From NCBI GenBank assembly GCA_026419785.1, contig JAODTK010004499.1, positions 496,001-560,000 on the forward strand: a stretch of DNA of 64,000 bases. The letters run 5' to 3'. Below the pieces are notes generated by a model. That model ran no database searches, was not told the DNA's origin, and was given only the letters and a program-made list of their open reading frames with translations. Origin of the DNA: Sclerodactyla briareus (lineage: Eukaryota; Echinodermata; Holothuroidea; Dendrochirotida; Sclerodactylidae). Below are positions 1,770 to 47,515 of this stretch, one piece after another (position 1 is the stretch's first letter; each line of letters starts with the position of its first letter). Both the position numbers and the translations under genes were made by a program.

Positions 1770-2168
1770 CTACTTCTTCCTCTTTTTGATCTCCAATAGT
1801 AGCCGTTTCGCGTGCAGGCGCCCCATACCTAACTCCCCGTACAGGTCTTCCTCGTCCAGGGTCGCCAACAGTTCCCCGTTGACGGCGTTCTCCTTGAAGG
1901 AGCCCACGTATTTCTCTAATTTCATTTCTCTGAGGAGATTGCAAACCGCGCCCTCATCGAGGCTGTTGAAGTTATCCCGATTTGGTAGATTCCCCATCTG
2001 TCCGTACACGGGACCGCTAGCGGCGCCCACTCGTGGAGTGGCAGCAGAACCCAGAGTATCGTACATGGGGTCTGCCATCAGTTTGTCAATCCGATCTTGG
2101 AGCATCCTGATTTCCTCTACCAGTGATGAGTTCTTCCCGTCCAGGACCCTTTTCTCTCCTTCCAGGCA
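1770..2168 (-). CDS. Locus A last exon: coiled coil plus SAM domain
   Basis: Terminal coding exon of 132 codons ending in TAG. It starts at a good acceptor (CTCACCCCACAG) in phase 0. The first ~35 residues form an acidic/basic amphipathic helix (LVEEIRMLQDRIDKLM), probably a coiled coil. A YDTL and a YGQM tyrosine follow, then a SAM domain over about the last 60 residues: LLREMKLEKYVGSFKENAV, a TLDEEDLYGELGM core and GRLHAKRLLLEI, ending in KKRKK. SAM domains mediate homo- or heterotypic binding. GAREM proteins end in a SAM domain, which fits the CABIT exons found upstream on this strand. The exon is fully open. Its link to the CABIT exons is inferred from strand, order and the paralogous locus B, since the joining exon is not certain. 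Confidence 0.8.
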   Translation of the reverse strand, partial: CLEGEKRVLDGKNSSLVEEIRMLQDRIDKLMADPMYDTLGSAATPRVGAASGPVYGQMGNLPNRDNFNSLDEGAVCNLLREMKLEKYVGSFKENAVNGELLATLDEEDLYGELGMGRLHAKRLLLEIKKRKK

Positions 2169-2334
2169 CTGTGGGGTGAGAGAGAGAGAAAGAGGTATTA
2201 GTCGGTAGTGATTCTGTCTAACGTAGCAACTCTCTACCAGTGAGAGCGTTGACCAACACAATAGCTGTATACAGGTTTACTGTGCCGTTCCTCTTCTCAA
2301 TAGCCTCGTGTTTCATGAATGACTTCTGCTCCCC

Positions 2335-2412
2335 GGATAATAAATAAATAATAAATAATAAGAAGGTTCTCAATATAGCGCCAAAAACCAAGAGGCCTCT
2401 AGGCGATTAACA
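2335..2412 (-). mobile_element. LINE 3' tail (hairpin plus ATT-like run)
   Basis: On the minus strand CGCCTAGAGGCC is followed by GGCGCTATAT and a TTATTATTTATT run. This is the same tail layout as at 575-640, in the opposite direction. It lies in the intron just upstream of the locus A SAM exon. Nothing of the LINE body is recognisable here. Confidence 0.5.
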
Positions 2413-2984
2413 AACTATAAAAGGTAGAATACGCTTAAACGAGAATGGAACAGTATATAAAAGAAAATGAAGGAAAGATTAGTAGGAATACGATGTACAA
2501 ATTAAAGTGAACGGCTGGACATGATATAAAAATATGAACGAATGGAAATTATAAAATGACGTTTAGAAATTAAAATAGATAAGTTCATGAAAGTTTCGAA
2601 TGACGTTGAGAAAATGAAAAAGTTTTATTCGATATGGCGAGCCTTAAAAAGAAGAAGAAGAAGAAAAAAAAGACGACTCAGTCCACGTCTGATGGATGTG
2701 AGCGAAATTTCTAGCATGCAGCCATTTTAACAGGCACTCGTCATTCCGGATTAATTTCCTTTCATTTTCTTTCAGGTTATCAAGCTCCATGAACTTCACG
2801 CCTCATTCGAGGAAAAAAAACACATATTCCTTTCGGAATAACGGACATTTCTCGAAACAGGATTCTACAGAGTGATGGCACATTTCGTGACCTCGTAATT
2901 GGAGGCAGGGGTGAATAGGGCAGTGCGGTTTGCCAGTTTGACCAAATGCACCTGAGTAAAAGCATAGTAAGAAGGGCGCTGCTT

Positions 2985-3305
2985 CAGTACCACTTTAAGA
3001 GTGGTGATAGTGTTCGAAGCCCTAAATGAGCCCTTTAAGAGTTGTGATATTTTCTGAGGCCCTGAAGGAGCACTTAAGGGTGGTGATATTATTTGGAACC
3101 CTAAATATGCCCTTCGAGAGGAGTGTATTGTTTGATGCCCTAAATAAGCACTTGAGGAATGGTGATATTGTTCAAATCCCAATATGAACACTTTGAGAGT
3201 GGTTATATGTGCGAGGCTCTAAATGACCATTTTAAGGGTAGTTATATTGTTCGAGGCCCTAAAAGAGCCATTTAAGAGTGTTGATATTGTTCGAGGCCCT
3301 GATTC
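2985..3305. repeat. Minisatellite, ~40-bp unit, ~8 copies
   Basis: A degenerate tandem array with a unit of about 39-43 bases. Each unit carries TTTAAGAGTGGTGATATTGT followed by TCGAGGCCCTAAATGAGC or a variant. Copies differ at several positions each, so the array is not recent. It lies in a locus A intron. Confidence 0.8.
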
Positions 3306-4285: not shown

Positions 4286-4354
4286 GAGGAACGATCAATG
4301 TTGAGACTAAATCTGCCAAAGCCATCTGACCACTGGAATTATGAAAGCTTGTAT

Positions 4355-6992: not shown

Positions 6993-7213
6993 CGCTTCTC
7001 TTGTTCCGAGCAGTGCTTTAAGTTCCTCCTGTCCTTAGCTGATTTCATGGTTGGACCCTTATTCTGGATGGGTATAGGATCTTCGTAATCGCCGCTGTCA
7101 TTTTGTAGTCCTTTCCGCATGGTGAAGTGTGAAGGAGGAAAGTGTGGTACATAATCAGACAGTTCGGTCATTATTATCACAGTTTTGTTTAAAGTGTATA
7201 GGCTATCTCTCAT
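6993..7213 (-). CDS. Candidate locus A exon 6: YxxP tyrosine-motif exon
   Basis: An open minus-strand stretch ending at a strong donor (GAGAAGCG, then GTAAGC). The predicted peptide carries two tyrosine motifs, SDYVPHFPP and GDYEDPIPI, which look like SH2/adaptor docking sites, and ends in a Lys/Arg-rich segment (AKDRRNLKHCSEQEKR). The segment QNDSGDYED parallels NGSDSGAETDD in the last exon of locus B. The 5' boundary is unsure: an acceptor at 7110 reads out of phase with exon 5, while one nearer 7210 would fit but lacks a pyrimidine tract. Membership in locus A is an inference from strand, order and motif type. Confidence 0.45.
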
Positions 7214-7214
7214 A

Positions 7215-8933: not shown

Positions 8934-9087
8934 GTTTTTTTGTTTTTTTTCTCCATTCAGTGTGATATTGCATGACATCCTCTTGCTCATGTTTTCCATT
9001 ATTATAGTGAATCTGACTTCAAGTATTACTTTCTGAACGATTTCGTTTTTACCATCGGATTGTTCCAGCTAGGTTATCCCAACTGAA

Positions 9088-9160
9088 GGCTTCGACCTTC
9101 CCGCTCCACGTAGCCGGGATCGAGAGGACTTGGTTCAAGTTGGCACTGAAGGCTGCATAT
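9088..9160 (-). pseudogene. Stray copy of the middle of locus A exon 4
   Basis: On the minus strand this matches 11775-11850 closely (AGTGCCAACTTGAACCAAGT, then TCGATCCCGGC and ACGTGGAG). In one frame it reads ANLNQVLSIPATWSGKVEA, which lines up with NWKQVLAIPLTSTVHVDRVK in locus B exon 4. It lacks splice sites and flanking coding sequence, so it looks like a partial duplication placed in the intron after exon 5. Confidence 0.6.
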
Positions 9161-10189: not shown

Positions 10190-10397
10190 GGGGCATTGGG
10201 GCTGGTCGGTGTCTTTGGTTTTGGTGGTAAAGCCGGTACGTGGTTGGGTGCATCAGGCCGTGGGGGTGGGGCGGGGGCGTCCTCCCTGTACAGCTTCAAC
10301 TCGTTGCTCATTCGTGTGTTTCGACTCCATCACTCCTCGACCCGAATCTTCAGGTACTCTGCGGCCTCCTTGGATGCTTTCAGCACGAACTCACGTC
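10190..10397 (-). pseudogene. Locus A exon 5: coiled coil and proline-rich segment
   Basis: The acceptor is ACATATGTCGCAG and the donor GTGAGT. Length is 208 bases, phase 1 in and phase 2 out. The frame joins in phase with exon 4. It reads a charged helix (LKASKEAAEYLKIRVEE), then after an in-frame TGA at 10332-10330 continues with MSNELKLYRED and a proline-rich run (APAPPPRPDAP, ALPPKPKTPTSP) with PxxP and PPRP motifs suited to SH3 binding. Locus B exon 5 has the same layout. The single TGA would truncate the protein just before the proline-rich part. Confidence 0.65.
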
Positions 10398-10830: not shown

Positions 10831-11124
10831 CATATAGGTGGGCAGAAAATGTCAATTGGTCAGTAGGCCTGAGTTACGAACTAGCCCGAGGTGTGAAAAG
10901 AAACAAAAAAATTCGGTGTTTATCCTCAGGTCCCCATAGGTCCTCAATTACCACCCGGAAGTGAGGAATTCTCCTGTCAAAATAACGATTAATTAGCAGG
11001 CATATAATGTAAAATGCAAACGAAAGCCACTGAAGAGCATCACCCTCGCGATCACAAAACGCCTCTCTAACACAACCTACTAGATCCATCCGATCTTCAA
11101 TATTCGAGCACAATGATATAAACA

Positions 11125-11700
11125 GTAGCCTCCCCCAGCGACATGATTCCCTAACCTCTTGTATCCTGAACCAGCTCTCGAGCTTCTCTCAGAAAGGCTC
11201 TAACACATGCCGTATGTTGGGCAGGAGTTCCCGCAGCTCGGCTCACCCCCCCCCCCCCCCCCGACCCTCTCGTTCCGATCCCAATGACGAGATCATTCTC
11301 CTTCTCGGCCTTTTCGATTCAATCGCCAGAGGCATGATTCCCTAACCTCTTATGTCTTGAACCAGCTCTCGAGGGTCTCTCCAGTGGGAGGGCTGTTGTA
11401 TGTTGGGGGAGAGTTTCCAGCAGCTCGGCTCATTCCAACCCTCCTCGTCCCCTGTCACAGGATCCCACACTTCTTGGCCTTACAGCCCGCCAGCGGTATT
11501 ATTTCCTATTGTGCCCTGAATCAGTTCTCGAGGTTCTCTTAGAAAGACTGTCAAACTTGCTATTGGGCTGGAGCCCCCCGTCCCCTATGCCAAGCGCCCC
11601 TTACCTTCTTGTGTTCTGGACCAACTCTCTAGGATCTCTTGAAGAGGTTGCGCCACCTGTCGCATGTTGGGCTGGAGTTCCTGCCGTCCTGTCCTCTCAG
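11125..11700 (-). repeat. Tandem multiplication of the 3' end of locus A exon 4
   Basis: About four copies of a unit spaced 90-210 bases apart (near 11140-11230, 11345-11440, 11505-11590 and 11600-11700). Each begins on the plus strand with CTGAACCAGCTCTCGAG or a variant and ends near TGGGCAGGAGTTCC. On the minus strand the functional-looking copy encodes QPNMRQVAQPLQEILESW and ends at a GTAAGG donor. Two others keep a GTTAGG donor-like site. So both coding sequence and donor site were copied. Confidence 0.7.
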
Positions 11701-11917
11701 CCCCCACGTGGTATTGATGAGGGGGAAGAGGGGAGGCAGTACACTTTGTAGTAGGTGCTTCCGCGGTGTCGTTCCGAGGCTTCGACCTCCCCCTCCACGT
11801 GGCCGGGATCGAGATTGACTTGGTTCAAGTTGGCACTGGTGGCAACCACGTGATACTCTTCGATTCCAATCGGTGCAGGGTCATGACAAACTTGGAGTTG
11901 TCGGCCTTCCTCACCCT
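11605..11917 (-). pseudogene. Locus A exon 4: end of CABIT domain
   Basis: The acceptor TTTTTTTCTCTAG opens in phase 0 on RVRKADNSKFVMTL, matching RVRKTERKSETFLL at the start of locus B exon 4. The exon ends at a GTAAGG donor in phase 1, which fits exon 5. The frame is open except for one TGA at 11827-11825 (ACT TGA ACC), after which SISIPATWRGRSKP aligns with LAIPLTSTVHVDRVK of locus B. The last part is a helix (QPNMRQVAQPLQEILESW) resembling DVIPQLYPLINWTMG. It is longer than the locus B exon (313 against 225 bases) and its 3' end is repeated in tandem downstream. Confidence 0.7.
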
Positions 11918-14443: not shown

Positions 14444-14573
14444 CAGTGGCAATGGGAATTTTTTGACGATCTCCGAGAGGCTCATGAATCGATTGAAGGC
14501 ATCGTGGTATAGGCGGCGCAGTCCATAGACTCAGAGAAAGCGACATCATAGTTGTTACACTTGCAGCTCGGCA
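14444..14573 (-). pseudogene. Locus A exon 3: CABIT segment
   Basis: The acceptor ATCCATCCACAG and donor GTGGAG bound 130 bases; the locus B counterpart is 135 bases. The first half reads PSCKCNNYDVAFSESM and AAYTTMPSI, matching EEVHYSERM and TYTTMLSK of locus B. The second half, in a different frame, reads MSLSEIVKKFPLPL, matching LCLSDIVTSNTLPL. A frameshift near 14495 separates the halves. The final LPL ends exactly at the donor in both loci, so the intron position is shared. Confidence 0.65.
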
Positions 14574-16397: not shown

Positions 16398-16582
16398 CAT
16401 CTGAGAGGGGCCTTGTCGCTGTTGGCTTGTACTGGTCTTCTTCTCGATCTTTCTATCTCGATGATGTCCACCGCATTCCTGGGCCTCCCTGGATGAATCG
16501 GACGAATCGCTCCTCGATCCCCTCACTCATCCTCGCCTAGGAGTGGCCGCGCACTTGAGGAGGGCGAGGGTGGTGTCGTACA
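16398..16582 (-). pseudogene. Locus A exon 2: CABIT segment
   Basis: The acceptor GATGATTACAG and donor GTAGGT bound a 185-base stretch. It enters in phase 1 like locus B exon 2 and reads LALLKCAATPRR, matching EVFKCKPLPKLL. Further on, in another frame, NAVDIIEIER matches NIIDVSHIER of locus B. At least one frameshift and a stop near 16535 separate the two parts. It is also longer than the B exon (137 bases). Confidence 0.5.
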
Positions 16583-17726
16583 CTGTAATCATCGTGCACC
16601 GGATCTTTCGAGACAGATTTTCATTAGTTCGCAGCGGTGTCACACCACATGGTTGTTGAATTTCTCTCACAATCTACTGACGTCCACTTCTTCGCCACAC
16701 ACGGGAATCTCCAGAATATATCTATAACTTGCTTTGAACTTGAGTGTTAGATGCCTTTGTGTTTCTTGTTCTTTTTTCTCAACGGAAACCCGAAAAGGAT
16801 ATTAGTCCTGAACTAGTAGGGCCCCCATTCACCACCCTAGACTCTCCACGAGTAAGTATCTTTTTGTTCAGGAGCAGTCGAACAAATTTACATGTTACTA
16901 TTGCAAATGTTGGGATTGGCATATCCGCCATTTTTCTGAAATGGCCCGCCATTTGAACCTATTCTCACCTTGACTGAGGCAATAGAGGTGCAAATTTCTG
17001 TGTTTAATACTCATGTTGTCTGGGTCGGGGTGATTCAATAAGAACAAGGACATTACCACTGGATCATTGGGATGTGGCAGGCCATTTTGAAATGCAAAAA
17101 TTCATTGTACTCGAGAAGAGCTATCACCGAGTTTCGCACCGTATGGCCGGGAACTGCTATAACGCGACCGATCTTGCCCTGGCTGCTTGGAAGGCCTAGA
17201 GTCCAGCTGTGGACAGAATCAGGAATCTGGAATACTAACAACTTGGAAAGAGAGGACCCGTAGCTAAGTCAGGCCCTACTAGAGGGGGGGGGGCTTGTGG
17301 GCCAGGCCTCCTGCACCTTGCCATGCCCCTGCTCTGTGGGACCTAGTGCCTATCAGTTTTCAAATTTTGATAGGCCTAGCTACCTGAAGTTCTAAAAAAT
17401 GGTTACCATTATCCGCTCCGGTGTAGTGTATAGAACAGTGGGACGTTGGTGTGGCCGCACGCTACCAGCCTACCACACCCCGTATGGTTTAACCAACTGG
17501 TCAATATGGGGAGGAGGGGTTTGAGCAGCTTGTGAATCTCCATTCACCTCAAGTTCGAACTTTCGACCATCATGTTACCGTCCTTACTGGTGTATTTTCT
17601 AATAATGTTCTCATGCCTGCGTGAATGAAGCTCGGAAATTAAATCCCATAAGTTAAAATAAGGCTTGAGGGCTCTCAAACTCAGCACTGCTGAGATAGTA
17701 ATAGAGAGTATGGGAACGGAAGATTC

Positions 17727-23260: not shown

Positions 23261-23856
23261 CTATCGGGAGTACCTCGTACAACTGGCGAAGCATAGATGG
23301 GCAGATAATCTTCCACATCATCTTGATCAGTAGCGTAGACCCTGTATGGCCTGTGAATGAACTGTAAACTCAGTAGCATGCCCTTGGTAAGAAGCATCGA
23401 ACCATGCTGTGGTCAGCCTCATCCTAACGCAGAATGGCAGTGATTTCTTGATCATCAGAGACGACCTATGTCTGTTTGAAAGCTGTCGATATCATCCTTC
23501 GGAGGATTAAATTTCAAGCAGATTGTCTTCTCCTCTGGGAAGTTTATGGTCTCTTCGATTCTTTTCTTTGAGGAGGCTGGTAGGTGACTGCTTGGATGTT
23601 CGTAGATGAGTTTTATTGTCGGTTCCCGAGGTGGAACAGGCGGAATCACATTTGAGGTAGGTCCTACCACTGACATTTGGCGGAGGGGCTGGAAGTTTCG
23701 TAGAGTTCCTTTTATGAGCTTTAGATTTTTGAGGCGAGGGTTTTTCGGTGACGTGCTGCTCGGAGATTTCTGTGATGATCTCCGCGTCGCAGACGGAATC
23801 CGCCGGAAGAGATTTTCGAAGGAGGTTCCAACGTCGACGTAGGTTTTTCGATTCAT
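23261..23856 (-). pseudogene. Locus A exon 1: N-terminal region and start of CABIT
   Basis: The ATG at 23856-23854 has a good context (CAACATGA). The first 133 codons are open. They are basic and Ser/Pro-rich, with a VIPPVPPREP motif, then SKKRIEETINF and EEKTICLKFNP, matching SKKRASREP and EEVCLSFVP of locus B. After a TGA at 23455 the CABIT continues in other frames: IKKSLPFCVRM, LLSLQFIHRPYRVYATDQ (B: LMMHFVIRPKRVFATDR), then LRQLYEVLPIG, ending at a GTGAGT donor in the same phase as B (LYDILPIG then GTAAGT). At least three frameshifts are needed to connect these pieces. Confidence 0.7.
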
Positions 23857-25269: not shown

Positions 25270-26600
25270 TTCATTGCCTTCTTCGGGGCTGCCGTCTGAC
25301 AACTTGGAACATGGACCACGTACGTGCAAAGACATATTGAAATATCTAGCGATCAATCAGCGCATAGGAAAAATAAATTTATTGACATCTCGACAATGCA
25401 CCGTTTGAGATCAAAGTACACAGTGGTCCTCTCAAAGCGAAACCAAGAGATAAGAGGCAATTATTCACCAGCAACTGTCACTTCCAGCAGGGCCACGGTT
25501 TACACTAATTGAATAAACGGTATAGTCCCCACCATGCATCCCGAGGGTTATAAGGGACGATGACATTGTCGACAAACAAATTGATCAGTGATTGCTTGGA
25601 ATAATAGAGGACAATAGATTTTGGTTTCATTAAGTCAATCTATCCTTAGTTACCCCAAAATATGATATTATTGAACTAATGAAGATACAACAATAACACT
25701 TAGAGTGGAAGAAAACGTACAAGTCCGGAAGCAGCCCTGGAAGAGATGTGACCTGGAGCTTTGATGCTGGAAGCTAGAGATCGATTCTGAGATTATCATG
25801 GACAACGGTAGTACATCCATTGATCCGAGCAAATGTTTGGACGGCTACAACATATGTCACAGACTCATTGTTCCAAAAATGGGCACGCACGCAGAGATGG
25901 GATATGGCTGATGGGCACTCAATTCAAGCTACCATGATCAAATCTGCAGTTCATTGTAAAATTTCAGTTTAACTAGCGAACCGTCACACTGTTCAAACTG
26001 GGACAGTTTCACAGGAATTGTGGGTCTGTTGACAGTGTAAATACTCAGCGGGAACTGCAACCGGTACCTGACATAGCCCTAGCTACCAGCTAACATGCGG
26101 TGTTGGAATCAAGAAGTATACATTAAAAAATATTGCTGCCCTAAGAAATATCTGTGTTCTCAGGGGTGAGGAACGGTGGTATATAACGGAGTAGAGGAAA
26201 CGCTGGGCGAATGTTGTCAATTTGTTTCAACCAAGTTGCCACTTTACAGCATTGTTAGATCATAAGTATTTACATTAGTTGTCGTCGAAATATGACACAG
26301 AAATGGCCCATCGAGAGCTGGGATAGAATTGTGTGTGTCGATGAGCCAGCCAAACAACTAGCCGACTACTCGAGATTATTTCTCAAACGGTTTTATACTG
26401 CTCACTGTAAGAATAAATCGTCGATTCCAAGTGGTTCTCTGAATAGCCTATTGATCCAAAGTTATTGATATCTCGACCTTCAGAAATTACTTCATGTGAG
26501 AGAACGTCCCTCAGGAATTGTGGGATTTCGTCGTAAGGTATATATACTGTAAAAGCAGGAAAATCATTCTATCATTTGCTACATTTCAGGCGGGTTAGTG
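25270..26600. other. Upstream region of locus B
   Basis: No coding exon was recognised. The missing N-terminal start exon of locus B should lie here or just upstream. A TATATATAC word at about 26540-26550 precedes the first recognised exon by ~70 bases but has no other support as a promoter. Confidence 0.3.
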
Positions 26601-26618
26601 TTTTTGTTTACCTGGAAG

Positions 26619-27010
26619 GCAACGAGATGTCGCAACTCCGTCTAAGAAGAGGGCATCGAGGGAACCTTTGTATTACGAAGATATTGCGAGATACAGGGAT
26701 GGAGGAACCAGGCACAGTCCGGGCACACCGGAAGAAGTGTGTTTGAGTTTTGTTCCTCAAAACCACGAACTCAACGCTGTTTACCACACACCGATAACGA
26801 ACCTGATCACGAGGAATGACCTCCCAATGACAGTCAAGTTGCTGGAGGATCTCGACATTACGGGGGACCGGGGTCTGAAGGCAGAGAAAGGGACAGTACT
26901 GATGATGCATTTCGTTATCAGACCGAAGAGGGTCTTCGCGACAGACCGGAAAAACAAAGATGTCGTTCTTCCATTCTACGCTAAGCAGCTGTACGATATT
27001 CTACCGATAG
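26619..27010 (+). CDS. Locus B exon 1 (first recognised): start of CABIT domain
   Basis: The acceptor is placed at TTTACCTGGAAG (weak) and the donor is GTAAGT (strong); the exon ends in phase 1. About 130 codons. It opens with a basic stretch (ATPSKKRASREP), YYEDIARYRD, then the CABIT: ITRNDLPMTVKLLEDLD, GLKAEKGTVLMMHFVIRP, KRVFATDRKNKDVVLPFYAK and LYDILPI. The pattern LPxxVKLLED - G-x-hhhh - hhLPhY follows the first half of CABIT in THEMIS and GAREM. An upstream exon with the start codon is required, because no in-frame ATG precedes the domain. Confidence 0.75.
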
Positions 27011-30000: not shown

Positions 30001-33000
30001 GCCAACCATAAAGATTCTTCCGAAACAGTGCGTATCGACCCATCACTAGGACCTATGGGCTTACCGATACAGTGAAAACACATCTTTTTTATGCCTGTTT
30101 CCTCTAAACAGACCCCCATCACGATGATAAAGTATTCCAGGGGACAGCTGAAGTGTTCAAGTGCAAACCGCTGCCGAAGCTTCTGAGGGTCGTCAACGCG
30201 TTCCTGTCGGAAAAACCACAGGAATCACAGGAGGAAGGAAACATAATCGACGTCAGTCATATCGAGCGGCATGGAAATATCAAGGTATCATCTTCTATGT
30301 CTTGGATAGTGTGTTACATTAGTGTGCCCGACCCGCCTCTCCCCCAAAATTTTCTGGTTCTTGGTTTGCGTCCTATCGCGCTCGCATTCAGGGTAGAAGA
30401 GTCACGTGTCGACACTCACAAGAGCAAACGGTAGAAAACATCGATATTTTCTATGAATTAGTAAGTAGAAATGTCGCTCATGAACATGGTGTACTAGCGG
30501 TACTCACAAAGTCAATAACATATTATAGCCCAGTTGTTGTACTCGAGTCCCGAGAGGCAGAGTAAGAGTCCGGCCTCAAATTGTCAATCTTCACGCTGTA
30601 GGCATCTAGGGCTTGGACTCGACTTCGAATCCGGGTCCGGCGATATCCAAGTCACGGGTCTAGACTAGGCTGCAACGCTGTTATAAGCACAACTTACAGA
30701 TAACTATGGACGAATATGACGATTCTGCAAGTATAGCAAGAAGCTTCGGGGTCGTGAAACGTCCTTCTCAATCTATGAAGACTGACTAGAGCACAACGTG
30801 AACTCCATTTAGTGAGACGGGACGTTCAATTGGAAGAGCTGAAATGTTCTGTTTCCGTTTTTGCCGACTTGTCAAATCATTTATACAAGAACCTCGTTTT
30901 CTTATGTATATTCGGGTCAGAATAGTACCAGAGTCTAGTCATATTTACATGACAATTGGCCTTTTAAGAGATATTTCCACTAATTAACATATTTTCGAGA
31001 TGTATTTCTCTGAGTTTACCCCTCCTAACTACAATCCTAATGACCGCATTAAGTGTACGTAACTGAGCTGATCATGCATAACAAATTAATACTTCATGTG
31101 ACACTTTCCAGAGTATATCCATGCAGGTATGTTCGACACAGACCATGGACAAACTGGACGCCAATTAGCTCCTTCCATTAACCTAAAAAATAGAATCCGA
31201 TATGATCATGACAGTACGGAAAGAAGCTTGACGCAATAGGGTGTGTAAGGACAGGAAGGACTGTGGGACGAAAACAGGTTCACTAAATTGTGTTATAAAA
31301 AGAACTCTCTGTAATTAAAGCGCTATACCTTTTATTAATGATTATCTTCAAGCCAGACCCAGCCGGTCGTTTTCGATCCCCCCTGCCACATCTTCCCTCC
31401 TCTCTCACCTTCCACGTGCTAGCCTCATTCTCCCTCTTCCCTCACAGAGTTGTCTTATCCTGTGTATCCGTGTTCATTAGATTCATATAATATGAATTAT
31501 TACTGTCATCCGTACAGTGGTCCGTACTTAGTTTGATACAAGGCAGGTTGAGGCCCACCAAGTTTAGCCGTCCCATTCACTTACACACTGAAATGACCCC
31601 CTTCAGAGGCCCCTGAGCCTGATAGAAAACATTCATGGTTTACGGGACAAACCATATTTCAGCTGACATGGTGCCCTGCCACATCGCCCCAACATTTCAA
31701 CTTTACCTTACATACCCACCGTACTAATTTTGTGGTGCAAGGAGGGCTCAACTTTCGGAATTCCTCCGCTCTCTGAAGGCCATGTCCACCAAAATCACCC
31801 AGTCCGTAGCTTTCCTATACGCTCGCTCGAATACAGGCAGGCAGTTTTGCTAATCACGGAGTAGCACCGATCTATCTCGGTTGAGCTCAGCTGACCTTGG
31901 ACTAGACCCCAATTCCCCCAAAACAATGGGGATCATATACTCATTGTTGGGGAACATACCAACAGTACCAAGTATAGAAAGCTAGTCGCGTTGACATGTT
32001 TTCATGCCAAAATTTGTCAAATTATCTTCTTCTGTTCTCAACAAAGCAGGCGACCACGGTCAACACAAAGAAACAATAGGGTTCATTTACTCCCCCATAG
32101 AAAGCAACAACTCCGAAATTTCTCAGATGGAACTCAGATGATATTTGCACTAAGCATTGGGGATCATATACTAATTATGTGGGACACACGTACCATGTAT
32201 AGGCTCCATCCATCCAGGTGAGGTCGAGTTAGCTGTTCACGATCTATTTTTCTTATACAGTTTCCACCTTTCTTCCTAGAACTGACCCACTGGCCAACAC
32301 TGAGAACAATAGGGTCCATATACTCATAATGGGAACACACTCGCAAATGTGAGCAACCATCCAGGTGGAATCGAGTTATCGTGTTTACAAGCCAAATTTG
32401 TCCAGAATATCGTCTTTTCACAAACTTTTCTATTTCGCCAAAATTTCCATCACCCGACACCTGAGCCCAAAACAAGGGTTCATGTACTCACCACAGGAAA
32501 GCTATCACTGTATCAACTTGATCTGACTGACCGTCCTGGACATATCGTGTTCACAGGGTTCTCAGACTTTGACCTCTGGTGATCTCAGATGATATGAGCT
32601 TCATCCATCCAGGTGGAATCGAGTTATCGTGTTTACAAGCTGTGCGTCACATACGCACACACAATATACACACACACTACACGCAAATACACACACACTG
32701 TCATGACTGCATAGATTCCCTGACTTCGCAAGGAATCAAAAATCGATGGGGACGCCGACAGGAAAAAAAAAAAAAAAAATTCGGACGAAATTCTGTGCCA
32801 CTTCGAGCTCCGAAATATCGTAATGTTGGCCAGAAGTTAACGCCGCAAATAATATGCGAAGATGAGCGAGCATCCGTAGTATACTTGCCGTTATATTGGT
32901 TTCAAATATCGGGAGCGAAATGATTCACATAACTGTGATTAAGAGACTCTTTCCAACCAGCCGAGAGCCACGATCTCTTTTGATTCCTATCATCGTTTGA

Positions 33001-36000
33001 TTCCTAGGTCCTGATCGGTTGGAACAGGACTACAAGAGAGGAAGTTCATTACTCCGAGAGAATGACGTCGACGTACACCACGATGCTCTCGAAGACTCCA
33101 CTCTGCCTCTCGGATATTGTGACGAGCAATACGCTGCCTCTGGTAAGAATCATTCAATATGGAAGGACTATATATGCGCGACACCCATAACATACCTTGG
33201 AAGCAAGTGTGTATGTTCAAACAACTGGTGCACCCTCGACTCAGCTGTAATAGCACAGTTAGTGCACAAGGACGACACGTCTAGAGGACTAGCAGTGTGT
33301 CGGCGTGATGTCTTTGGTATATTTCGATATTCCTGATAAATTACGCGTCCTCGACATACGAGGGGAAGTTATGAACATGTGGAGGAAACTAGCAAAACAC
33401 AATTTCGAGGATCTCTCAGGACTGTTTTTTTTTTTTTTTTTTTTTTTCTTTTTTTTTTCTACCATTGCCGGAGATATAGTTCTCCCGGAGTTGATTTTAT
33501 TTTGAATTTTGGGCAGGGAATAGAAGCAGCAAGGTTTAGGTTCATGGGCTTGTAGGAAGATTTTGTAGAGATTATAGACCGACCCTTGAGTTTATTGAGC
33601 TATCGGAAATTGAATCTAAGGGCTGGTAGTGAAGAGGGTTTTCCAATAACCGTTTGATAAAGTTCCATGTTTTTCTCTCATGTACTTTTTCTCACTCGGG
33701 CATCTCAAGAGTCACCGTTAACCGAGTTGTTTTTCTCTCGTTTGAATGTTTAAATGAGACATCGGGCGGGTAACTCTGTGCCGACGTTATCGAACCAGGT
33801 TTGTACTGTTATTTCCAATGCTTTCTCCTAACGCGCCCCCTCACACGTACTATACGCCACCACCCGGGTTTTGTTTTACCTTTCTTCCCACTGTCAAGGG
33901 TCATGAAGCTGGTGAAAATAGGCTTCTCTGCTTCCATTGAAACATCTACTCTAGTCAGCCTTTGATACAATGTTCTTCAACTGTCATATTTTCCCAAGAA
34001 TAAATTCTACTAGTTACAATTTTTATCATGCCAGGATGAGGAGCAAGAATGCAAATACATTCAGATCGGGGCCAGGTTATACTGGATACTTCAAACACAG
34101 AACTACTACTGTTGTACGGGCTGCTTCACACGACGATGACCCACCAGTTCAAAGGTTCACTAGTCTGAAGGCTCACTAGATAGGAAATTCGGACAACGAG
34201 AAGTGGACTTTAGCGACGATGTTTAGAGTCTACATTGGCGACAAAAATTCGACTTAGGCAACAGATTAATAAAGTTTGATCCCGGGAAGTAGCCTTCAGC
34301 AACAGGTAGACTTTGCCGACGAAGTCAAAACCTCTTTTCCGTCCCCAAAGTTCGTTCCAGACTTCATCGCCGAGTTCACTTTTGAATGTCGAAGTATACA
34401 TTTCGTTGCCGAAATCACTTTTTCGTCGTCAAAGTCACTTTACTTCGTCGCCAAAAAGCTACTTCTCGTCGCCGAAGCCTCCGTACGAGTGAACCTTCGT
34501 ACTAGTAAACCCTACCCGCTTCACACGATTAACGATGTGAGAGAACAAATATAAGATATAGAATCTTTATTGACCATAAAAGGAATTAAACCTCCACTTC
34601 ATCTCATACATAAAACAGTTAAGAATACAAATATACAACTCATAAGACAATAAAAATATTAAAACTACAAAAAGACTAATACACACTCCAACGTTCTGAC
34701 ACATGCACATACTTATTTTCTACAAAACTAATTGGCAGGATTTAGAAGAGGCCTGGGCAAGAAAGACCGTCTATACCCTCAGTTCAGCATATAATAACGA
34801 TTGGTCTGCCTGTTCGACAGCTGTATTTAACCTGAATGCTAAGGGGTGTTTAGACGATGTGAGTATTGACTTGACGTTTCTTTGTGTTGTCATAGCAAGA
34901 AGCTCATCTACCGATATTAGGTCCTGAGAATGGTAAACTCGCTTCGCTTCCCTAACTATTGTATTTAAGTTAGCCATGTCTCTTAGTGTTGTATTACCTC
35001 CCCATGCAACCAAACAAAACGTAATAATGCTCCCAATAGTCGCCTCATGGAATAGAGAAATGAGCGTCTTGTCTAGTCTGAATGAGTTGAGCTTCGTAGA
35101 AAGAACATTAGTCGGTTAATTTTAACCCGTATAGTACTGACATGTTCACCCCACTCCAATTTGTCAGTAATGGTAACTCCGAGATTCTTGTAGTAATTAA
35201 CCTTGTTTCTACTTGCTCGTTTCTAATTGGAATGCCCCCTAATTGGTGTCCACTACGGTGGAAGTCAACAACTAGCTGTATCGTTTTGGACACGTACATC
35301 TCCAACCTGTTCTCTTGACATCAAATCGTGAAGGTGGATACTACATCCCTATACCCAGTCTGTTCGCCATTCTTCCCCATAAAACCTACGATGCACGTGT
35401 CGTCAGCAAATTTGACAATATGGGTGCTGGGATGTATGCTGCGACAATCAGAAGTATAAAGTGTGAATAGAACGGGTGATATTAAGCAACCCTTTGGAGC
35501 ACCAGTATTCCTTACAATATCGCTAGAAACTCTGTCATTCACAAATACTCGCTGGATCCTGTTTGTCGGGAAGTCCAACACCCATTTTGTCAATTAATTT
35601 CATAATCACACATTTTGTCAACCAAAAGATGAGGAAGAAGGTGTTAAAAGCAGAGGGAAAAAAATCCACAAATAGAATTCTAGCAAAGTTACCAGGACTG
35701 TCTAGATGTTTGTATATGGAATCAGCAAAAAACATGATAGCACCTTCCACAGAGCGTTTTTCCCTGTAAGAAAACTGTAAAGGATCCTCGTGATTAGAGA
35801 TTTGGGGGCGCAGTCGTGAGAGCACGAGCCGTTCCAAGATTTTCATGGGGATCTAGGTGACTGCCACTGGTGTAAGGTAATTCAGTACACTAAAGGCAGG
35901 CTTCTTAGGGACGGGCACCAAGTGGGATATTTTTCGAGAGACTGGGACACGGTGCGTAGAGACATGTTAAAATATAATGATAAATTTACGAGAGCTGCTC

Positions 36001-39000
36001 ATGGCACATTTTCAGAACTTTTCAAACACAGGTTTGACCTTCAGTATTCTCAAGAAACCTCAGTGCGTGTGAACTCTATTGTTGAGTGATTGATGCCATC
36101 ATCAAGTCCATGACAGACTCGCTGAAGCTCGCTGAGAAAGTAATGTGTGTCAACCTGGCATACAACTGTTCAGCACATCAGGCATGTTGTCGGGAGCTCG
36201 ACACTTCCACAGGGATATTATTAGGTTTATTGTTCTCCCACCCAGTCACGCATTCCATGCCTTTCCAAACATGCTGTGTCATTGTGATGAAAATATCCGC
36301 GTTATCTCCTCGCCGGTGGTTCACAGAGAGTCCGCAAGACGGAACGGAAGAGCGAGACGTTTCTCCTTCAGGAGTGCACTGATGAGGCTCAAGTGATCTG
36401 TACGATACCGAACTGGAAGCAGGTACTCGCCATCCCGCTAACCTCGACCGTCCACGTCGACCGTGTCAAGGCACCCGCATTGGAACCCTCTCCGAGAGAT
36501 GTTATTCCGCAGCTCTATCCGCTAATTAACTGGACCATGGGCGTTAAGGAGGTAGGCCGGCAGACCCTACCGAACGCCTACAAGGAAATTCCACACCCCG
36601 AAACTGACAGTGCTCTGTGAATGGATAAACAGCAAGGAGGGTAGCCTATAGAACATTTCCTTCTCTTCAATCGGACTTTGGTCAAATAATTTAAAATAGG
36701 GACAGATTGAATAATAATGACAATAATAAATACATGATTGGAAAAATTGAGAGGGAAAAAAATAATGATGTGGCTGATGATGATACCTAATATAACCAAT
36801 AATATATAAAATAATAATTAGCGACCGATGAATGGATGCTGCCAAAAAGGGGAAGGATTGGTGCTACCAGATTGACTGACCCAGATGACCTGAAAGGGAA
36901 ATAACGGGTGGAGGGACGGAGAGAGGGTATACCCACGCCATTGAAGATGCGACAGCAGAGGACTGACTGCAATAAGTTCATCGGCTGAACGGTACCAATG
37001 CCGGAAATGAGCAGTACAGGATCAACAAGGGCCGTTCAAAAGAACAAACCTGGAGTGTGTACCAGGAACCTAACGAAATGGTGGCAGTGGTGGTTACTCG
37101 TCCCCAACACCACCCAGGGAGGAGACTGGGACTTTTGGCGTGTGGTATTGGGGGTACAGAAATCACACAACGAAGATGCTGGAAGGATAGAACAATTCAA
37201 AACAACCCCACCGGGAGACGCCCACCCAAACCGCAACCCCCAGTACAGAGACTGAGGTGAGAGGACAAGGCGAGAAACAAAATGGCCAAAACGGAAATCC
37301 ACCGGGGAAGCCAGGTACAGGGATTCGGATGAAGAAGCTGACGAGCCTGCACTGGAGGATGGAGCTTCAACTACAAAGAATCATGGAATGATCCTAACAA
37401 CATACCAAAGTGGATGACCACATGGCCGAACAGGGGTCATTCAGAAGGGACCCGACAAAAGGGATGCTCCTGCAAACTTCAGTCCAATAAATGCTGCCAA
37501 CAACATGGAAACTGCTGACGGGATCCTCGCAGATAGATCACGACCACATAAGTGAACATGACTCATGGCGAAGGAACAAAAAGGAGTTCTGACCAGCAGC
37601 AGAGGGACAAAAGATCAAATAGTCATCGATAAGGATGTGGGACGGGACTCCAGAACCAGACACACCAACGGCGGTAGCATTGATTGACTACCAGACAGCT
37701 ATGACTACTACCACATTCGTGGATCCATAAGGCCATGAGGTTGCACAGGATAAATCCTCAGATATGCAACAGGGTAGAGGCGTCACATGCAAAAACTGGG
37801 TTACGGACGGACGGCCCCAGTGGACATCACATCGGGTCATCAATCCCAATATCAACGGGCCTTTCCAACGGAATTTGCCCTGTCCCCACTACTCTTCTGA
37901 TGTGGCTATCAACCCCCTCAGCTACATACTCAACAATGCGCCCGGATATACACCGGTAGACCGAAATATCCATCACCTCCTCTACATGGATGACCTGAAG
38001 CTCTACGGCAAAAAAAGAACGTGCATTGACTCAAGATCAGACTGTGAAGATCTCAGTGAGACATTGGGATGACTTTCGGCCCTCGAGAAGTTCGTGCGAG
38101 ACTGAAATCCACAGAGGGAAGTGTAAAAGTCTACCCAAGGCCGTGACCTAGACATCGGCCGACTACAGGACGTCAATGTGGCCACGGGGTACAAATACTT
38201 AGGGATGCCCCAAGGCGTGGAGAAATAACAGAAAGAATAAAGGCCAACGCCGTAAGGTCTACTCAAAACGGGGCAGACAATTCTCAAGACCAGATGAACA
38301 GCAAGCAACAAGTAACAGGCCCTCAATAATTACGCAATTGCCCGTGATGATCACCTACACAGCAGGGGTAATCGACTGGACGACGAAAGACAGAGTGAGG
38401 GAGTTCGACCGAAAAACCAGGAAAGTCCTGACCATCCACGTGGACTGCACCCCGGAGAAGATGTCCACCGCCTGTACCTCCCCCGACGACAAGGAGGCAA
38501 CGAGGCCTAAGCAAGTGGAGAGTTACAGTAAAAGTGAGAAAAGGGGAATGTGCGAATACATCCGCCAGAACAAGTCGGAGGAACCACTATAGGGTGGCAT
38601 GGAGTGCAATGGGACCACTGACACAACGGGGAAAAAATGAGTGGAAAACACAATGGATCATGAATACAGAATGCATGGAAGGAAAAAAACAACTCCATGG
38701 TCAGTACCCTCGGCAGATGAGGAATCACAAGCAAGAAAACGGCATTTAAAACAGGTTGTCCAAGCAGGACAAAAATAAGAAAACGGAAGCCAACTAAAAC
38801 AGCTGCACAGGAACAGGCCCTGAATACCAAATGCCACAGAGCCAGGATCCTACACCAACACACACGGACACCCGGCCCCAAGTGCAGCAGAATTGTGTGG
38901 GTGCTCAGGATGGAAACTGTGAACCAACTGGTAGCAGGATGCCAGAAGCTGGCCCAACGGGAGTACATGGCCAGACATAATAAAGTTGCAGACGCCTACA

Positions 39001-42000
39001 TTGGGGGATCTGAAGCACTACGAGATAGTTGTCCCGGAACACCATGGTGCACCAACCTGAGGCAGTAGTAAGAGTAACTGAGAATGATGAAGTCAAGGTC
39101 CTGTACGACTTTGAGCTGCGAAAGGACAGGTCAATCCCAGCGAGAAGACCAGATCTCGTGGCTCCGGAATAAAGGCAGGGAGACAGCCCAGATCATAGTT
39201 GTCGCAATACCCACAGATCACAACATCAGAAGCAGAGAGAAAGAAAGATTGAAAAATATCAAGACATGAGACTGGAGATACCCCGGACTTTGGGATGTCA
39301 GCGCTGAAGTAATCCAGTGGTTAGTTGGGGCGCGGGGGGCTGTAACCCCGAACTTGGAAGGCCACCCTCAAGAAATACCTGGAAGCCAGAACACCAGGCA
39401 CCTTACCAAACAAGCCATCCGTGCGAACCCCCCACATACTGAGACGAGTACTGGACCGCCAAGAAATCCGGGTACTAGGATTTCTGAGGCCCGCGTGTAA
39501 ATATGTAATTACATTCCACCATTGTAATAGTTGTGAGGAAATAAAGATTAATAATAATAATAATAATAAGTAATACATAATAATAATAATAACATACTAT
39601 AAAACAAAAACACTAATTACACGAAAGAAGGACCAGACTGGGTGATAGTGACGACGGCCCAAGAGACGCAACGATCGTCGACGTGCTATTCCCAACGGAC
39701 ACCAACATTCGTCATGAAAGCAAGAAAAAAGATAGAGAAATATCAGGATCTGTGACCGAAGGGGGTACAGAGGCTGTGGAATGTCAAAGCCAGGGTTTTG
39801 AGCCAGTCGTGATAGGGGCATTCGCGCAGTCCCACAACTCACATCTGAAAGATATCCCAGGCACCAACCATGCAACATCCCTAACGAAGGAGGCCATACT
39901 TGGCACTGCACACATACTAAGACGTGTACTCAACTCCAAGAATCCGGGTAGGAGTCTGAGGCTAACGAGAATCAAGGAGAGGCACGAGCCAAATGAGAGG
40001 TTTTAAGGAGAGAAAAAGATAATAATAATAATATAATAATAATAAAATAATAATAATATAATAATAATAATAATAATAATGACTGTCGAGCTGTAGGATC
40101 ATAGAGCCGGGTTGGATTCGGCTTAATGTGAAGATCCTGTTTCTGGAAGAAAGGTGATCTCAGGAGGGGGAATGTGTGTGCCTGATGACGTAAAACTTTC
40201 ATTGTCATCTAGCAGCTCACGTATATGGACGTTGCCTTGGTTTAGAATCGACGTTAGGAAGATATTCTATGGAATTTGTTGGCGTGATGCCGCATTGGTA
40301 CACGTGGTAATTTCGTTTGCTCAGTGCTCGTTCTATATATATTGGGTGCAGTTTGGAATTCTACAGCAAATTCGGACACTTCCTATGTATGCGTGCGCAT
40401 AAATCTGACTTGAATTGCGTCATGCCGTATTCCTCATCTGCAACTTTGCAACCCTAGTATGTTGGATATAGAGCATCGGTCTGAGCCAGTTGGTTTTTGA
40501 AACGGACTCAATGTCATCCGCATCTATGGAAATGTAGCGTGCGTTAACAACCAGCATAAGTTAGCAAGTAGTTCAGGGTCCTGGCAAGAATCCTCCCATA
40601 GAGCTACCATTACATTCAAATGTTACCACTGTTCGAAAATGGAAGCTATTCATTCTATTGTTGATTATTGCAGGTTTGGACTGGTAGGAGGATCGCCAGA
40701 AGGTTCGGCAAAGTCGACAAGGAAACCATCGCCGAACTACGGAGAAAGATTAAATCAATGGAGAAACAGGTTGGGTCTCCTCCTCCACCGCCGTTACTAC
40801 CAGCCAAGAGCAAGCCGCTGCCGGCTGTCAAACCAAAACCTTCCAAACCTGGTGAGCTATTAAAGTGACACGTAATCCATCACAGTCTTTTCTTACCTGA
40901 AAACCGTATGCACGAGTCATATTCCTGGTATTGTTCTAGCGGAGACAGCCCATCTGACAATTACCCTACTCAACCTAGCCCTTGTAAGGGCCCCAGAGCT
41001 AATAATCAGTTCACTCAGTACTCTCAAATTGTTCCACTAACCTGTCTGTGTGAGGCTATGAGGTGTCGGCACACACGCAGCGAGGCGAGCCACCGCCAAT
41101 AGCATTATAGACCATGAGGGGCAGACCCTAGCAGGGGCTACACTCACCGTTAGTTACATTACCATAGGGAACACAGAACTGCTATGACAGGTTCTGGACT
41201 ATTTGTACCTAGCCATTTAAATTCAGGAACCAGGGTCCTGTGATGATGAAACCATTGGATCGTGAAGTTTCGCCTTCTCTCCCTGGCAAGTGCCTAGTGG
41301 TCAAGAGGGCCAGGGACAGGCGTTGTATCTGAGCACTCAAACCCTTCCCCCCGCGGGACTCAACAATCTGGCATAGTCTTTCCTCGACAGACTACAAAAT
41401 AGTCGTCACCGCTGTCTTGCAGCAGTGTCACATCTCACTCGGAGAACTAACAATCCCAAACAAATAAATTTCTTTCCATCAAGCTCCTGTGCTAACTGTG
41501 GAGCAGCTTTTGACGACAAGAGGCAGCAGAGAGGAATATGAACTGGTATCCCCCGCATGAAAAGGCTCGCTCGCGTGATTACACCACATTACTCACACGT
41601 CACAGCGAAATACGACGGCACCTCATCGACAACCCATCCATTCTGGGTGGGCGGAGATATTTACAGTCTTAATCTTAATCTTAATCTTAATTCATGGCGT
41701 GATGTTCATGTTGGCATGTAGTATGGAACACGGAACTGGCTAGAGGAGTCAGCACCGCTGTGAGGCCTTTAGTTTATCAACCCGGGAGACCAGGGATAAT
41801 ATCGAAGGCTTTGAAAATGGTATCTGTTGCCTTCTCGCAGGTGCTCAGTATGATAGACGGAACAGCGAGAAAAGAGTGGTATGCTTCTGTCTGAATATAT
41901 GTACCCCTCCTTCCTCGTTCCATGCATTCACACTCTAAAAAATGTTGGGTACAAATACCACCTGGTCAATTTGTTGCACCCAGTCTGGGAGATATTTTTC

Positions 42001-43149: not shown

Positions 43150-43330
43150 GGACGAGTATCAGTGGCGTAGCCAGTGGGGGGGGGGGGGGGGTAGGGATGT
43201 TGCCCTCACCTGAAATAGATCGAGAGGGCAAATCGGGAAATTGTAGGCTTGGGGGGGGGGGGGGGGAGGCAGGAGATGTTGCCCTCACCTGAAATAGATC
43301 GAGAGGGCAAATCGGGAAATTGTAGGCTTC
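43150..43330. repeat. Poly-G repeat with exact 55-bp duplication
   Basis: AGTGGCGTAGCCAGTGGGGG starts a poly-G tract. The 55 bases at 43196-43250 are repeated exactly at 43275-43329, each preceded by a poly-G-rich segment. It is probably a local duplication inside a poly-G-bearing transposable element. Confidence 0.8.
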
Positions 43331-44160: not shown

Positions 44161-44344
44161 TATTACCCCAAGTAACTACTTCTCCAATTAAGGGGCTTTA
44201 CCACGTTCAATTCCTGAAGGCGTATATCGAAAGAAATATGGATTAAATCGGACTATAAATCGAATAGCTCTCCGATAAATAGACTGTGTGAATATGAGAG
44301 GTTAGAAAAAGGCTGTTACCATTGGGTGTTGTTTCACAATAGCA

Positions 44345-44480: not shown

Positions 44481-46750
44481 TCTCAACTATGAAGATTAGG
44501 GATTACGAGCCTGCAATTGAGATATTGGGTTCGTGGTATACGATACGATATACGGTGTACATTGACCGGTATCATCATACCGGGGATCGTTAGATTCTGC
44601 CTGCACTATCGGCACTAACTGCAACCTCTCTTAATTCTTCGTGTGTCTTCCCTGCTATTCAAATCGCTAATTAACGGAATACTTAAACAAAACAGTTTGG
44701 AGTGTACATTAGGTTATAGTATAAACTCGACGATTTAAACTTTACGAACGTGGTCTACTTTCTTTGTGTGCTCTCCAGGAAATCGATGTCCTGAAGAAAC
44801 AGGTCGTATGTAAGCCGATATCGTTGATAAATAAATATCGGTGCCTGGAAAATGAACTCAACTGCTTTTGGAAAACAACTGCCCTGCCCCTCGCTATTCA
44901 ACACATCAAACGTTAGGATTATTTTTGCAAATTTCAAATTTCGCAATTATGTTTTTCGAATGGATAAAATTCAATTAAGATATGTTCGGAGAACGTATTT
45001 ATAGTTGTGGTATATATAAGTACTCGTAGCAGGCTCCGAGAGAAGGGAGGGTTACGGGGTCAACGGAGCAAGTAACTCCCAGGCCGAATGTACTTCAATT
45101 TGTACGATGTCAGGTCCTCTCACTGTTATATTCAGTACAAAGTCACGAATGGAAGGAATTCTCTCTGATGACAACCGGATTTCCCTGATTCGTAGTAGTG
45201 AATCCCCCCCCCCCAATATTCGTTTTCAACACATCACCCCATATTCCCTAATGCGGTGCCGGGGTATCGGCGCTTAACCAGGAGGGAGGGATGGAGGAGA
45301 GGTGGAGGGGGGGACATTGCCTAGTAGCGGCATCGATATCCTCATTTGTCTTCCAATTGCCAAATTCCATATATCTTTTTCTATATCCACTTCCTCAAGG
45401 AGAATGTGAGGACTGAATTCTCACCTACCGAGAAATATAAAGTTCACTCAAGAAGAGTGGATAATTCATTCTTTGGAATTGTGGAACCACCTCAAGCGGA
45501 GTGGGACATTCATCCAAAAGATTATAGCTTTAGCCATGAGGTACGGTATGTGACGTTTTCTTAACGATCACTCAACCAGGCCTGACAGAAAAAGTTATTG
45601 GTACATGTGTTCACCATACTAAGTACTCAACCCCCCCCCCCCCTTTTTCATTCGGGTAGAAGGTTCTCCTGGGTCAAGAGAGGTCGAACTCCTAAATACA
45701 TAGGCCGATAGACTGAACATTAGAACATAATAATGCAAATACTTCGTTCATCAGGAATGAAATTGCCTCGAATCCTTCGTATCTCTGATGTTGCAGGTCA
45801 TCTGTGTGTGTCAAGGAATCACTGATCCCTCCGGGCCCCCCCCTTTCTTGTTTTTAAAGTTCATGTCGAAGCTCCTAAGAGGTTACTATCGCCCAATAGG
45901 TTAACTTAGGTACTGCTAGCCGCTGGTATAACATGAAGAACTCTATTATCCGGCTAGATGTCAGGGACTATGGCCAAACACAGCAAAATTGATATTACTA
46001 GAGAAGCAGCGTCCAATGAACAACATTGCTTTGTTCAGACCCAATCAAGGTTTCGAACCAAAATCTGCTCACGCGGATTATGCGCAGATATCACTATATT
46101 GGCATTACGCAAATCGTTGTTTGCTGGTTGTTACCAGTAGAATGCAGTACTCACGCAGTGTGGGTTCTCCTCGCTCTTAATGGTCCAATGGTCATGTAAA
46201 TATGACTGGTCTTTTGGTACTTTCTATGTATGACCGTTATTACAGGCGGAATTCCACCCCGAATTTCAGCCGATTCGCGTGAACCGATAAGGCACGATCA
46301 GCCATTACACATCGCACAGTCACGGGGGAAAACCACATATTCCCACCACGATACAAAGTGAATGTAAAACACGTACTTTTTAAATCTTGTCCAAACAAAC
46401 TATATATGGGTCCTATGAACCCTACAAATTGTTCTCGAACTATGGAAGAATATAACCTTATTCACTTATGATTGTATATCACTTTTCTCTTTCTGTAATC
46501 ATGGCGCAAAACTGCAGCATTTTACTATGTAGGCCCTATGGACTGCCTTCGCCTCGTTCCCCCCGTATTTCCTAAATTTTCTCACAGTAAATTGAAATAT
46601 CTCGAGGCAACATGCTAGAACCGACCTCCAATTTTGGTGTGGGGTTTTGAATATATCCCTTTTTTCACTTGTGCTTTTTTAAAGCAAATTTGTTACACTG
46701 ACCGTGGCGTCTTTAAGTTCTTCACAGTGCTAAGGCGTAATGATCACGTC
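44481..46750. other. No recognised gene
   Basis: It contains several poly-C tracts (45207, 45630) and a weak echo near 46115 of the repeat at 4070. No exon was recognised. Confidence 0.3.
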
Positions 46751-46764
46751 ACCTAGCGGACGAG

Positions 46765-46950
46765 CCGTTCTCGCCTACGACCTCTCCGTCTAGTGGTTAG
46801 CACAACGGGTAGATCTCGCCTCCATCGGAAGACCTTGTTTGACCCTGTCGGGTCCATACCAAAGACTTTAATGGTACCTGTTGCCTTGCGCCAGCACAGG
46901 GGATTGAGCAGGATAGGCAATTTGGTGAGTGGTCGTCTGCGTGTTACTAC
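46765..46950 (+). mobile_element. tRNA-derived SINE
   Basis: The head carries CGTCTAGTGGTTAGCACAAC (A box) and a degraded B box, followed by TACCAAAGACTTTAATGGTA, CCTGTTGCCTTGCGCCAGCA and GGGGATTG. The core matches the SINEs at 41735 and 58525. Confidence 0.75.
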
Positions 46951-47162
46951 CCCACTCCCACATCAAGGTACCGCTAAAGAGGCCTTGCCTTATCCGTGTA
47001 TAAGGGGTTCGCATCTACAATAAAGGCAGTAACAGTTCTGCACTCCTTGCTGAGCCTTGCATATGTTCGATCCTCTGTGCTCGGCAAGATTATCGCAGGG
47101 AAAGAATAGAAAAAAATCAGTTTAACTTTTTTTGTATTAAAATAAACAGTCTCTTCCAGCAG

Positions 47163-47515
47163 GAAAAGAACGAACACTTGGCTTCGATTGCGGGTTGAAG
47201 GCGAAATTAAACATCTCAACGAGTCGAATCCACTCACTCTCCAGGGACCAATCATCACGACGACCCTCTGGCCCGAATACGAGGTACCCGTGCCGTAGTG
47301 AAAACGGTAATCTTGCTTCTGCTATCGTCGATGATGTCGTCAGTTTCGTCGGTAGTGTCGGCCTGTCATCCTTCGCCGAGGTATTTAGAAAGGAGAATAT
47401 CGAGGGCGCCTACTTATAGAATTGGACGAAGGATACCTCCATCCGAGTGGGCCTCAACGAGACTCATGCTAAGAAACTGATGAACTTGAGGTTCGAAAGA
47501 GAATCTGAAGGGGAC
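47163..47515 (+). pseudogene. Locus B orphan SAM exon, broken
   Basis: The acceptor AGTCTCTTCCAGCAG is followed by EKNEHLAS, as in the charged helix before the SAM domain of locus A. The SAM reads DDVVSFVGSVGLSSFAEVF, RKENIEGAYL, then in another frame ELDEGYLH, then VGLNETHAKKLMNLRFE. The order GL - FAEVFRKENIEG - LELDE - GLNETHAKKL is that of a complete SAM domain, with frameshifts at about 47415 and 47448 and another upstream. It sits 4.6 kb past the last in-phase exon of locus B. It is the counterpart of the intact SAM exon at 1770-2168. Confidence 0.7.

Follow-up and report, generated by a model that had tools for sequence, protein, structure and literature searches.

Organisation of the locus

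We analysed a 64,000-nucleotide stretch of the genome of the holothuroid Sclerodactyla briareus (the window, positions 496,001 to 560,000 of contig JAODTK010004499.1, assembly GCA_026419785.1), in which a first-pass annotation had described a head-to-head pair of genes with CABIT, proline-rich and SAM segments. The window is part of a 319-Mb assembly of 3171 contigs, and the contig that carries it is 583.4 kb long. Protein comparison of the open frames revealed that the two genes are indeed present and diverging: the exons of gene B, on the minus strand, and of gene C, on the plus strand, are homologous and follow the order that had been described. These two genes are, however, flanked by others and form the centre of a back-to-back array of no fewer than four related GAREM-like adaptor genes, which extends from about 450.3 to 581.2 kb of the contig (about 131 kb). 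Along the contig, genes A and B, on the minus strand, are followed by genes C and D, on the plus strand. Gene A lies in tandem to B outside the window. Gene D, which was located by comparing 14 exon pieces with the contig from 400 to 583.4 kb, lies in tandem after C, and only its first exon falls inside the window. We consider that the four paralogous genes are probably diverged GAREM-like adaptors (CABIT-like, proline-rich, SAM) which expanded locally, and that the breaks found in their reading frames most likely result from assembly indels. The recognised exons are given below.

Gene B (window coordinates)
23261..23856, minus strand: exon 1, N-terminus rich in lysine and proline, with first CABIT-like block; LPI at the end, followed by gtgagt; several frame changes; 5' end at an ATG, putative
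16398..16604, minus strand: exon 2 (DPVHDD...DIIEIER), in which two frame changes were counted
14444..14573, minus strand: exon 3, ends LSEIVKKFPLPLthen gt
11605..11917, minus strand: exon 4, beginning with RVRK; differs from A by four frame changes
10190..10397, minus strand: exon 5, helix and proline-rich (DAPAPPPRPDAP)
6993..7168, minus strand: exon 6, tyrosine/acidic (SDYVPHFPP, GDYEDPIP); 5' border uncertain
1770..2168, minus strand: exon 7, SAM domain, open to the stop codon, 133 codons

Gene C (window coordinates)
26599..27010, plus strand: exon 1, with the first CABIT-like block; LPI at the end, followed by gtaagt; uncertain 5' end, with an AG resembling an acceptor up to 26589
30112..30284, plus strand: exon 2 (DPHHDDKVF...)
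33008..33142, plus strand: exon 3, ends LSDIVTSNTLPLthen gtaaga
36327..36640, plus strand: exon 4, beginning with RVRK; a single frame change close to the 3' end
40674..40851, plus strand: exon 5, helix and proline-rich
about 47300..47506, plus strand: SAM-like exon, borders approximate; frame changes and an in-frame TAG

Gene A (contig coordinates)
474.03-474.22 kb, minus strand: copy of exon 1, found by a genome-wide search with C exon 1
450.27-450.52 kb, minus strand: copy of the SAM exon, found by a genome-wide search with the B SAM exon

Gene D (contig coordinates)
559.2-559.57 kb (window 63200..63566), plus strand: exon 1, LPLQASQRYDVLPKthen gtgagt; 5' border approximate
570.98 kb, plus strand: exon 2
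572.45 kb, plus strand: exon 3 candidate
574.75 kb, plus strand: exon 4
580.95-581.2 kb, plus strand: SAM-like stretch, identified by eye

Exon correspondence and shared introns

When B and C were compared directly, exon 1 alone stood out (E 8.5e-7), in a list in which repeats reached 3e-6, and exon 4 gave an E value of 0.007. Comparisons with A were stronger, with E values of 2.7e-13 for exon 2 and 7.9e-10 for exon 1 between A and C, and of 6e-19 for the SAM exon between A and B. The remaining exons of B and C correspond because this third copy ties them together, and it is mostly by this route that the matching exon order proposed at first was borne out. Seven mirrored exons had been expected on each side. 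All seven were found in B, but only six could be recognised in C, in which the tyrosine exon has no confident counterpart, a short match near 41.2 kb having an E value of 0.28. This was also the best match of B exon 6 in C, and the best in A reached 0.58, so that no homologue of this exon was demonstrated in either copy.

Intron positions and phases further indicate that the genes share a common ancestor. The joint after LPI is in phase 1 and the LPL/RVRK joint in phase 0, each at the same place in A, B and C, as the first-pass annotation had proposed for B and C. The donor site of D exon 1 has the same place and phase as the exon 1 donors of the other three genes. The joint that had been read as LPIG is shared, but after LPI it holds only the first base of the codon that follows, which encodes aspartate (D). 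Exons 1 to 4 of C can be joined through GT/AG junctions into a single open frame of 334 amino acids, which stops just before the frame break of exon 4. From these models, each gene would encode a CABIT-like region made of two half-units (exons 1-2 and exons 3-4), followed by a helix and a proline-rich stretch where these were recognised, and a C-terminal SAM-like domain. The proline-rich exon was found in A, B and C and was not located in D.

SAM domain

The C-terminal assignment is firmest for B. Exon 7 of this gene matched Pfam SAM_1 (PF00536) with an E value of 6.9e-11 and 42.8 bits, for a gathering score of 23, and thus contains the SAM domain that had been predicted. B was the only copy to pass. 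The SAM piece of A scored 19.8 bits with the same profile, below the cut-off, while the first part of the SAM-like exon of C, taken alone, matched SAM_2 with an E value of 0.0038 and 17.8 bits, below the cut-off of 20.5. The SAM-like stretch of D, recognised by eye, gave no Pfam match, which counts against the proposed domain layout. Among solved sequences, the nearest to the B SAM exon were the SAM domains of liprin-beta-1 and SARM1/tir-1, and the likeness of B to these proteins is confined to the SAM region.

Identity of the exon 1-4 block

A number of results weigh against the assignment of exons 1 to 4 to the CABIT family (PF12736, Pfam gathering cut-off 24 bits). No copy reached this cut-off; the best score was 12.7 bits (E 0.083), at the exon 3-4 joint of A. 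The read-through A protein scored 11.2 bits with CABIT and 11.1 bits with an unrelated birnavirus family, so that its CABIT score carries little weight. No Pfam CABIT match was obtained with the exon 3-4 joint of B, with C even as the spliced 334-amino-acid frame, or with exon 4 of D, and a piece of D exon 2 instead matched SH3_2 at 16.2 bits, under the cut-off of 21.8. The expectation that the CABIT profile would recognise these exons failed for the C exons and for the two B pieces tried. In profile-profile comparisons, exons 1-2 were not significantly similar to either CABIT half, 12 of 99 and 31 of 99 shuffles scoring at least as high as observed; the A-C alignment compared with GAREM1 alone gave a P value of 0.16; and the probabilities reported by hhalign itself were only 0.4 to 2.8%. 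By eye, the core cysteine position is occupied by glycine in C.

Other comparisons point towards CABIT. It was the sole family listed for the exon 3-4 joint of A at E values up to 10. Exons 3-4 resembled both CABIT halves, the second at P 0.0034 and the first at P 0.006, and none of 100 shuffles reached either score. Four comparisons of an exon pair with a CABIT half were made, and these two positives remain below 0.05 after multiplication by four. The whole A-C alignment compared with the CABIT set gave P values of 0.026-0.027, with 1 of 200 shuffles, and the whole A-D alignment gave 0.016, in a register that places GAREM TIRNIVEKTRLPV opposite the cluster consensus LseIVtknpLPL. The reference set comprised GAREM1 and THEMIS rows, of which the GAREM1 row was confirmed to match PF12736 (3e-69). 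At the level of motifs the picture is mixed. CABIT combines a cysteine core with LP(hydrophobic)x3GxF. A related LP(hydrophobic)x3Q[LR]Y occurs in exon 1 of all four genes, that of B spanning a frame break, but exon 3 showed no such motif. In B, by eye, a cysteine is present. A conserved cysteine core is described for CABIT (PMC3931654), as is the possibility that the domain is a dyad of beta-barrel units (PMC3931654). Such a dyad would fit the observation that exons 3-4 match both halves.

A six-frame, genome-wide search with Pfam CABIT produced no match, and control genomes were likewise silent. The CABIT sequence of GAREM1 found nothing in the genome at an E value of 1, a result which, without a control, shows little. 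When the A-C alignment was searched as a profile against the PDB, nothing matched at an E value of 10.

On balance we regard the exon 1-4 block as CABIT-like, a description that falls short of demonstrated membership in the Pfam family. Alternatively, the block could be an unrelated or new two-unit domain placed before a SAM domain, its likeness to GAREM being a convergence of layout. The failure of every copy at the Pfam cut-off, with no match at all for C, the low hhalign probabilities and the silence of exons 1-2 would all be expected in that case. Against this stand the exon 3-4 block, which surpassed all 100 shuffles with both CABIT halves, the listing of CABIT as sole family for the A joint, and a layout like that described for GAREM (PMC4082722). 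We consider this alternative unlikely. A GAREM-like layout, as first proposed, is consistent with the order of the segments and with the SAM domain detected by profile in B, but its CABIT part is weak and stays below the Pfam cut-off.

Frame breaks

Frame changes or stops were found in exons 1, 2, 4 and 5 of B, in exons 1 (5' part), 3, 4, 5 and SAM of A, and in exon 4 and the SAM-like exon of C, which raised the suspicion that some of the genes are pseudogenes. The first-pass annotation had mentioned none of these breaks, by which B is affected more than C. Frame-tolerant alignment counted 4 breaks in 455 codons of A, which also has two in-frame stops, 9 in 425 codons of B and 5 in 336 codons of C. 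These counts, made on A to C downstream of the 5' part of exon 1, are rough: for exons 1, 2, 4 and 5 the reference was taken from the open pieces of A, so that the value for A is a lower bound, and one of the five breaks counted in C falls in exon 3, although the spliced frame reads through this exon without interruption.

Actin and Hsp70, which are essential genes, served as controls. Six breaks in 765 codons were counted in actin (six loci, of the 12 returned by the search), and 7 breaks in 509 codons plus one stop in Hsp70 (all seven loci found); broken exons of both lie on contigs C2424, C2792 and C1260. The actin exons are 86-94% identical to a vertebrate actin. The pooled frequency in A to C (18/1216 codons) did not differ significantly from that of the controls (13/1274, p 0.37), nor did that of A alone (p 1.0). 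Since essential genes are broken as well, indel error in the assembly is the likeliest cause of the breaks, and frame breaks in this assembly, taken alone, do not indicate dead genes. Two points soften this conclusion: B alone (9/425) was borderline against the same controls (p 0.09), and some control copies may themselves be pseudogenes, for instance the Hsp70 locus L019, which contains the stop.

The distribution of the differences between A and B provided a second test. They are concentrated at third codon positions (94/334, compared with 58/342 at first and 39/339 at second positions; p 1.3e-7), as fits divergence under selection on the protein. Outside the SAM exon, similarity to A guided the choice of the B frames, and this may bias the count in the same direction; the SAM exon alone still gave an excess (p 0.02), and exon 3 alone gave none.

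Genuine breaks in B, and perhaps in A, would leave only C and D as working genes. The nine breaks of B, four of them in exon 4, the four breaks and two stops of A, and the repetition of exon 4 fragments within the introns of B could be read in this way. However, the rates in actin and Hsp70, the third-position excess, notwithstanding the choice of B frames, and the SAM exon of B, open across 133 codons, make loss of function improbable. The pseudogene reading is weakened by the controls and by the codon-position test, and assembly indels remain the most likely source of the breaks in the cluster.

Relationships within the array

Over the readable protein of exons 1 to 4, the closest pair is A and B, with 152 of 249 positions identical (61%). 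B and C share 95 of 269 positions (35%) and A and C share 88 of 263 (33%), and D has 26-29% identity with A, B and C. The nearest relative of B, as judged from these sequences, is A and not C. Inverted repeats of at least 60 nucleotides in the window amounted to 10 pairs, all with simple-sequence arms, at 22.5, 39.5-40.1 and 60.4-60.5 kb, and no DNA-level mirror between B and C was found among them. The low identity of B and C, the closer relationship of B to A and the simple-sequence nature of the inverted repeats indicate that the mirror arrangement does not stem from a recent inverted duplication. The sequences thus place the tandem A/B duplication as the youngest and the central divergent pair as old. 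The cluster would most likely have grown through tandem duplication on either side of this older divergent pair, the split of A and B coming last. Of the linked inverted pair described at first, the linkage and divergence of B and C hold, but two genes had been missed and the duplication misstated, since the locus is a divergent array of four.

First recognised exons of B and C are separated by 2.7 kb, measured from the first ATG of B (23856). The segment 23880-26588 has a G+C content of 42% and a CpG observed/expected ratio of 0.85, compared with 0.80 for the window. A promoter common to both genes is possible and remains putative. That one GAREM gene underwent a recent head-to-head inverted duplication with a bidirectional promoter, as the divergence of B and C across so short an interval might suggest, is very improbable, since this picture is contradicted in age by the 35% identity of B and C against 61% for B and A, and in gene number by the second gene on each side of the pair, and since the inverted repeats hold nothing but simple sequence.

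Comparison with known adaptors and proposed function

GAREM is described as combining a single CABIT domain with a proline-rich region and a SAM domain (PMC4082722); it is tyrosine-phosphorylated upon EGF stimulation, and its proline-rich region binds Grb2 (PMC8086153). The cluster resembles GAREM1 and GAREM2 (FAM59A/B) in the order of its segments, a CABIT-like block preceding a proline-rich stretch and a SAM domain lying at the C-terminus, and in its tyrosines, which are found here in the linker exon of B. It differs from them in that its Pfam CABIT scores stay below the cut-off and in that its own members are only 26-61% identical. It also comprises four linked genes, whereas two GAREM subtypes are described in mammals (PMC6852768). 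THEMIS, THEMIS2 and THEMIS3 likewise have a CABIT-like region followed by a proline-rich stretch, but THEMIS proteins are reported to contain two CABIT domains (PMC4082722), in contrast to the single CABIT-like region of two half-units, plus SAM, of the cluster. CABIT proteins have been traced back to cnidarians, and the suggestion that this adaptor family is better known from vertebrates agrees with the same source (PMC4082722). No paper on such a cluster was found among open-licence PMC papers, as far as their titles and the beginnings of their abstracts tell.

By analogy with GAREM and THEMIS, the products may be cytoplasmic scaffolds acting downstream of receptor tyrosine kinases. The proline-rich stretch would bind SH3 domains of the Grb2 type, the tyrosines (SDYVPH and GDYEDPIP in B) would be phosphorylated and recruit SH2 proteins, and the SAM domain would mediate assembly. 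Grb2 binding, or action below a receptor kinase, is in this case an inference from the known adaptors.

What surprises most about the locus is how far its genes lie from known CABIT sequences; the main caution concerns the assembly. If the assignment is correct, the CABIT-SAM adaptor family extends to a locally expanded group so diverged that the Pfam model misses it, and the duplication of a CABIT half-unit may be preserved in the exon layout. One could go further and suppose that these four SAM-tailed adaptors, arranged as two diverging tandem pairs, form the whole CABIT-like repertoire of the animal, a branch too distant for current profiles whose half-unit origin is still visible in the exons. 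Genome-wide searches with C exon 1, the B SAM exon, A exon 4 and D exon 4 produced matches confined to the contig of the window. Each search, however, missed known copies: the C exon 1 query missed B, the B SAM query missed C and D, the A exon 4 query missed D, and the D exon 4 query missed A to C. Diverged copies could thus exist elsewhere, the array is not demonstrated to be the whole repertoire, and we regard this extension as rather doubtful.

Repeats and other features of the window

No tRNA and no Rfam family was detected in the window. The start of C exon 2 and its acceptor (window 30085-30154) are duplicated 184 bp upstream in intron 1, at 29901-29970 on the plus strand. The copy is truncated, 89% identical over 70 nucleotides, and soon reaches a stop. 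Fragments of B exon 4 recur downstream in the introns of B on the minus strand, at window 9061-9156 and about 11000-11600; Tandem Repeats Finder detected no regular array between 10700 and 11950 except a poly-C run. At 43176-43329, next to a poly-G run, a 75-nucleotide unit has one further copy at 93%. Finally, a reverse transcriptase remnant lies in an intron of B (window 21093-21593, plus strand; RVT_1, E 3e-12), and a second one, which matches it at 3e-6, in an intron of C (window 35321-35593, minus strand).

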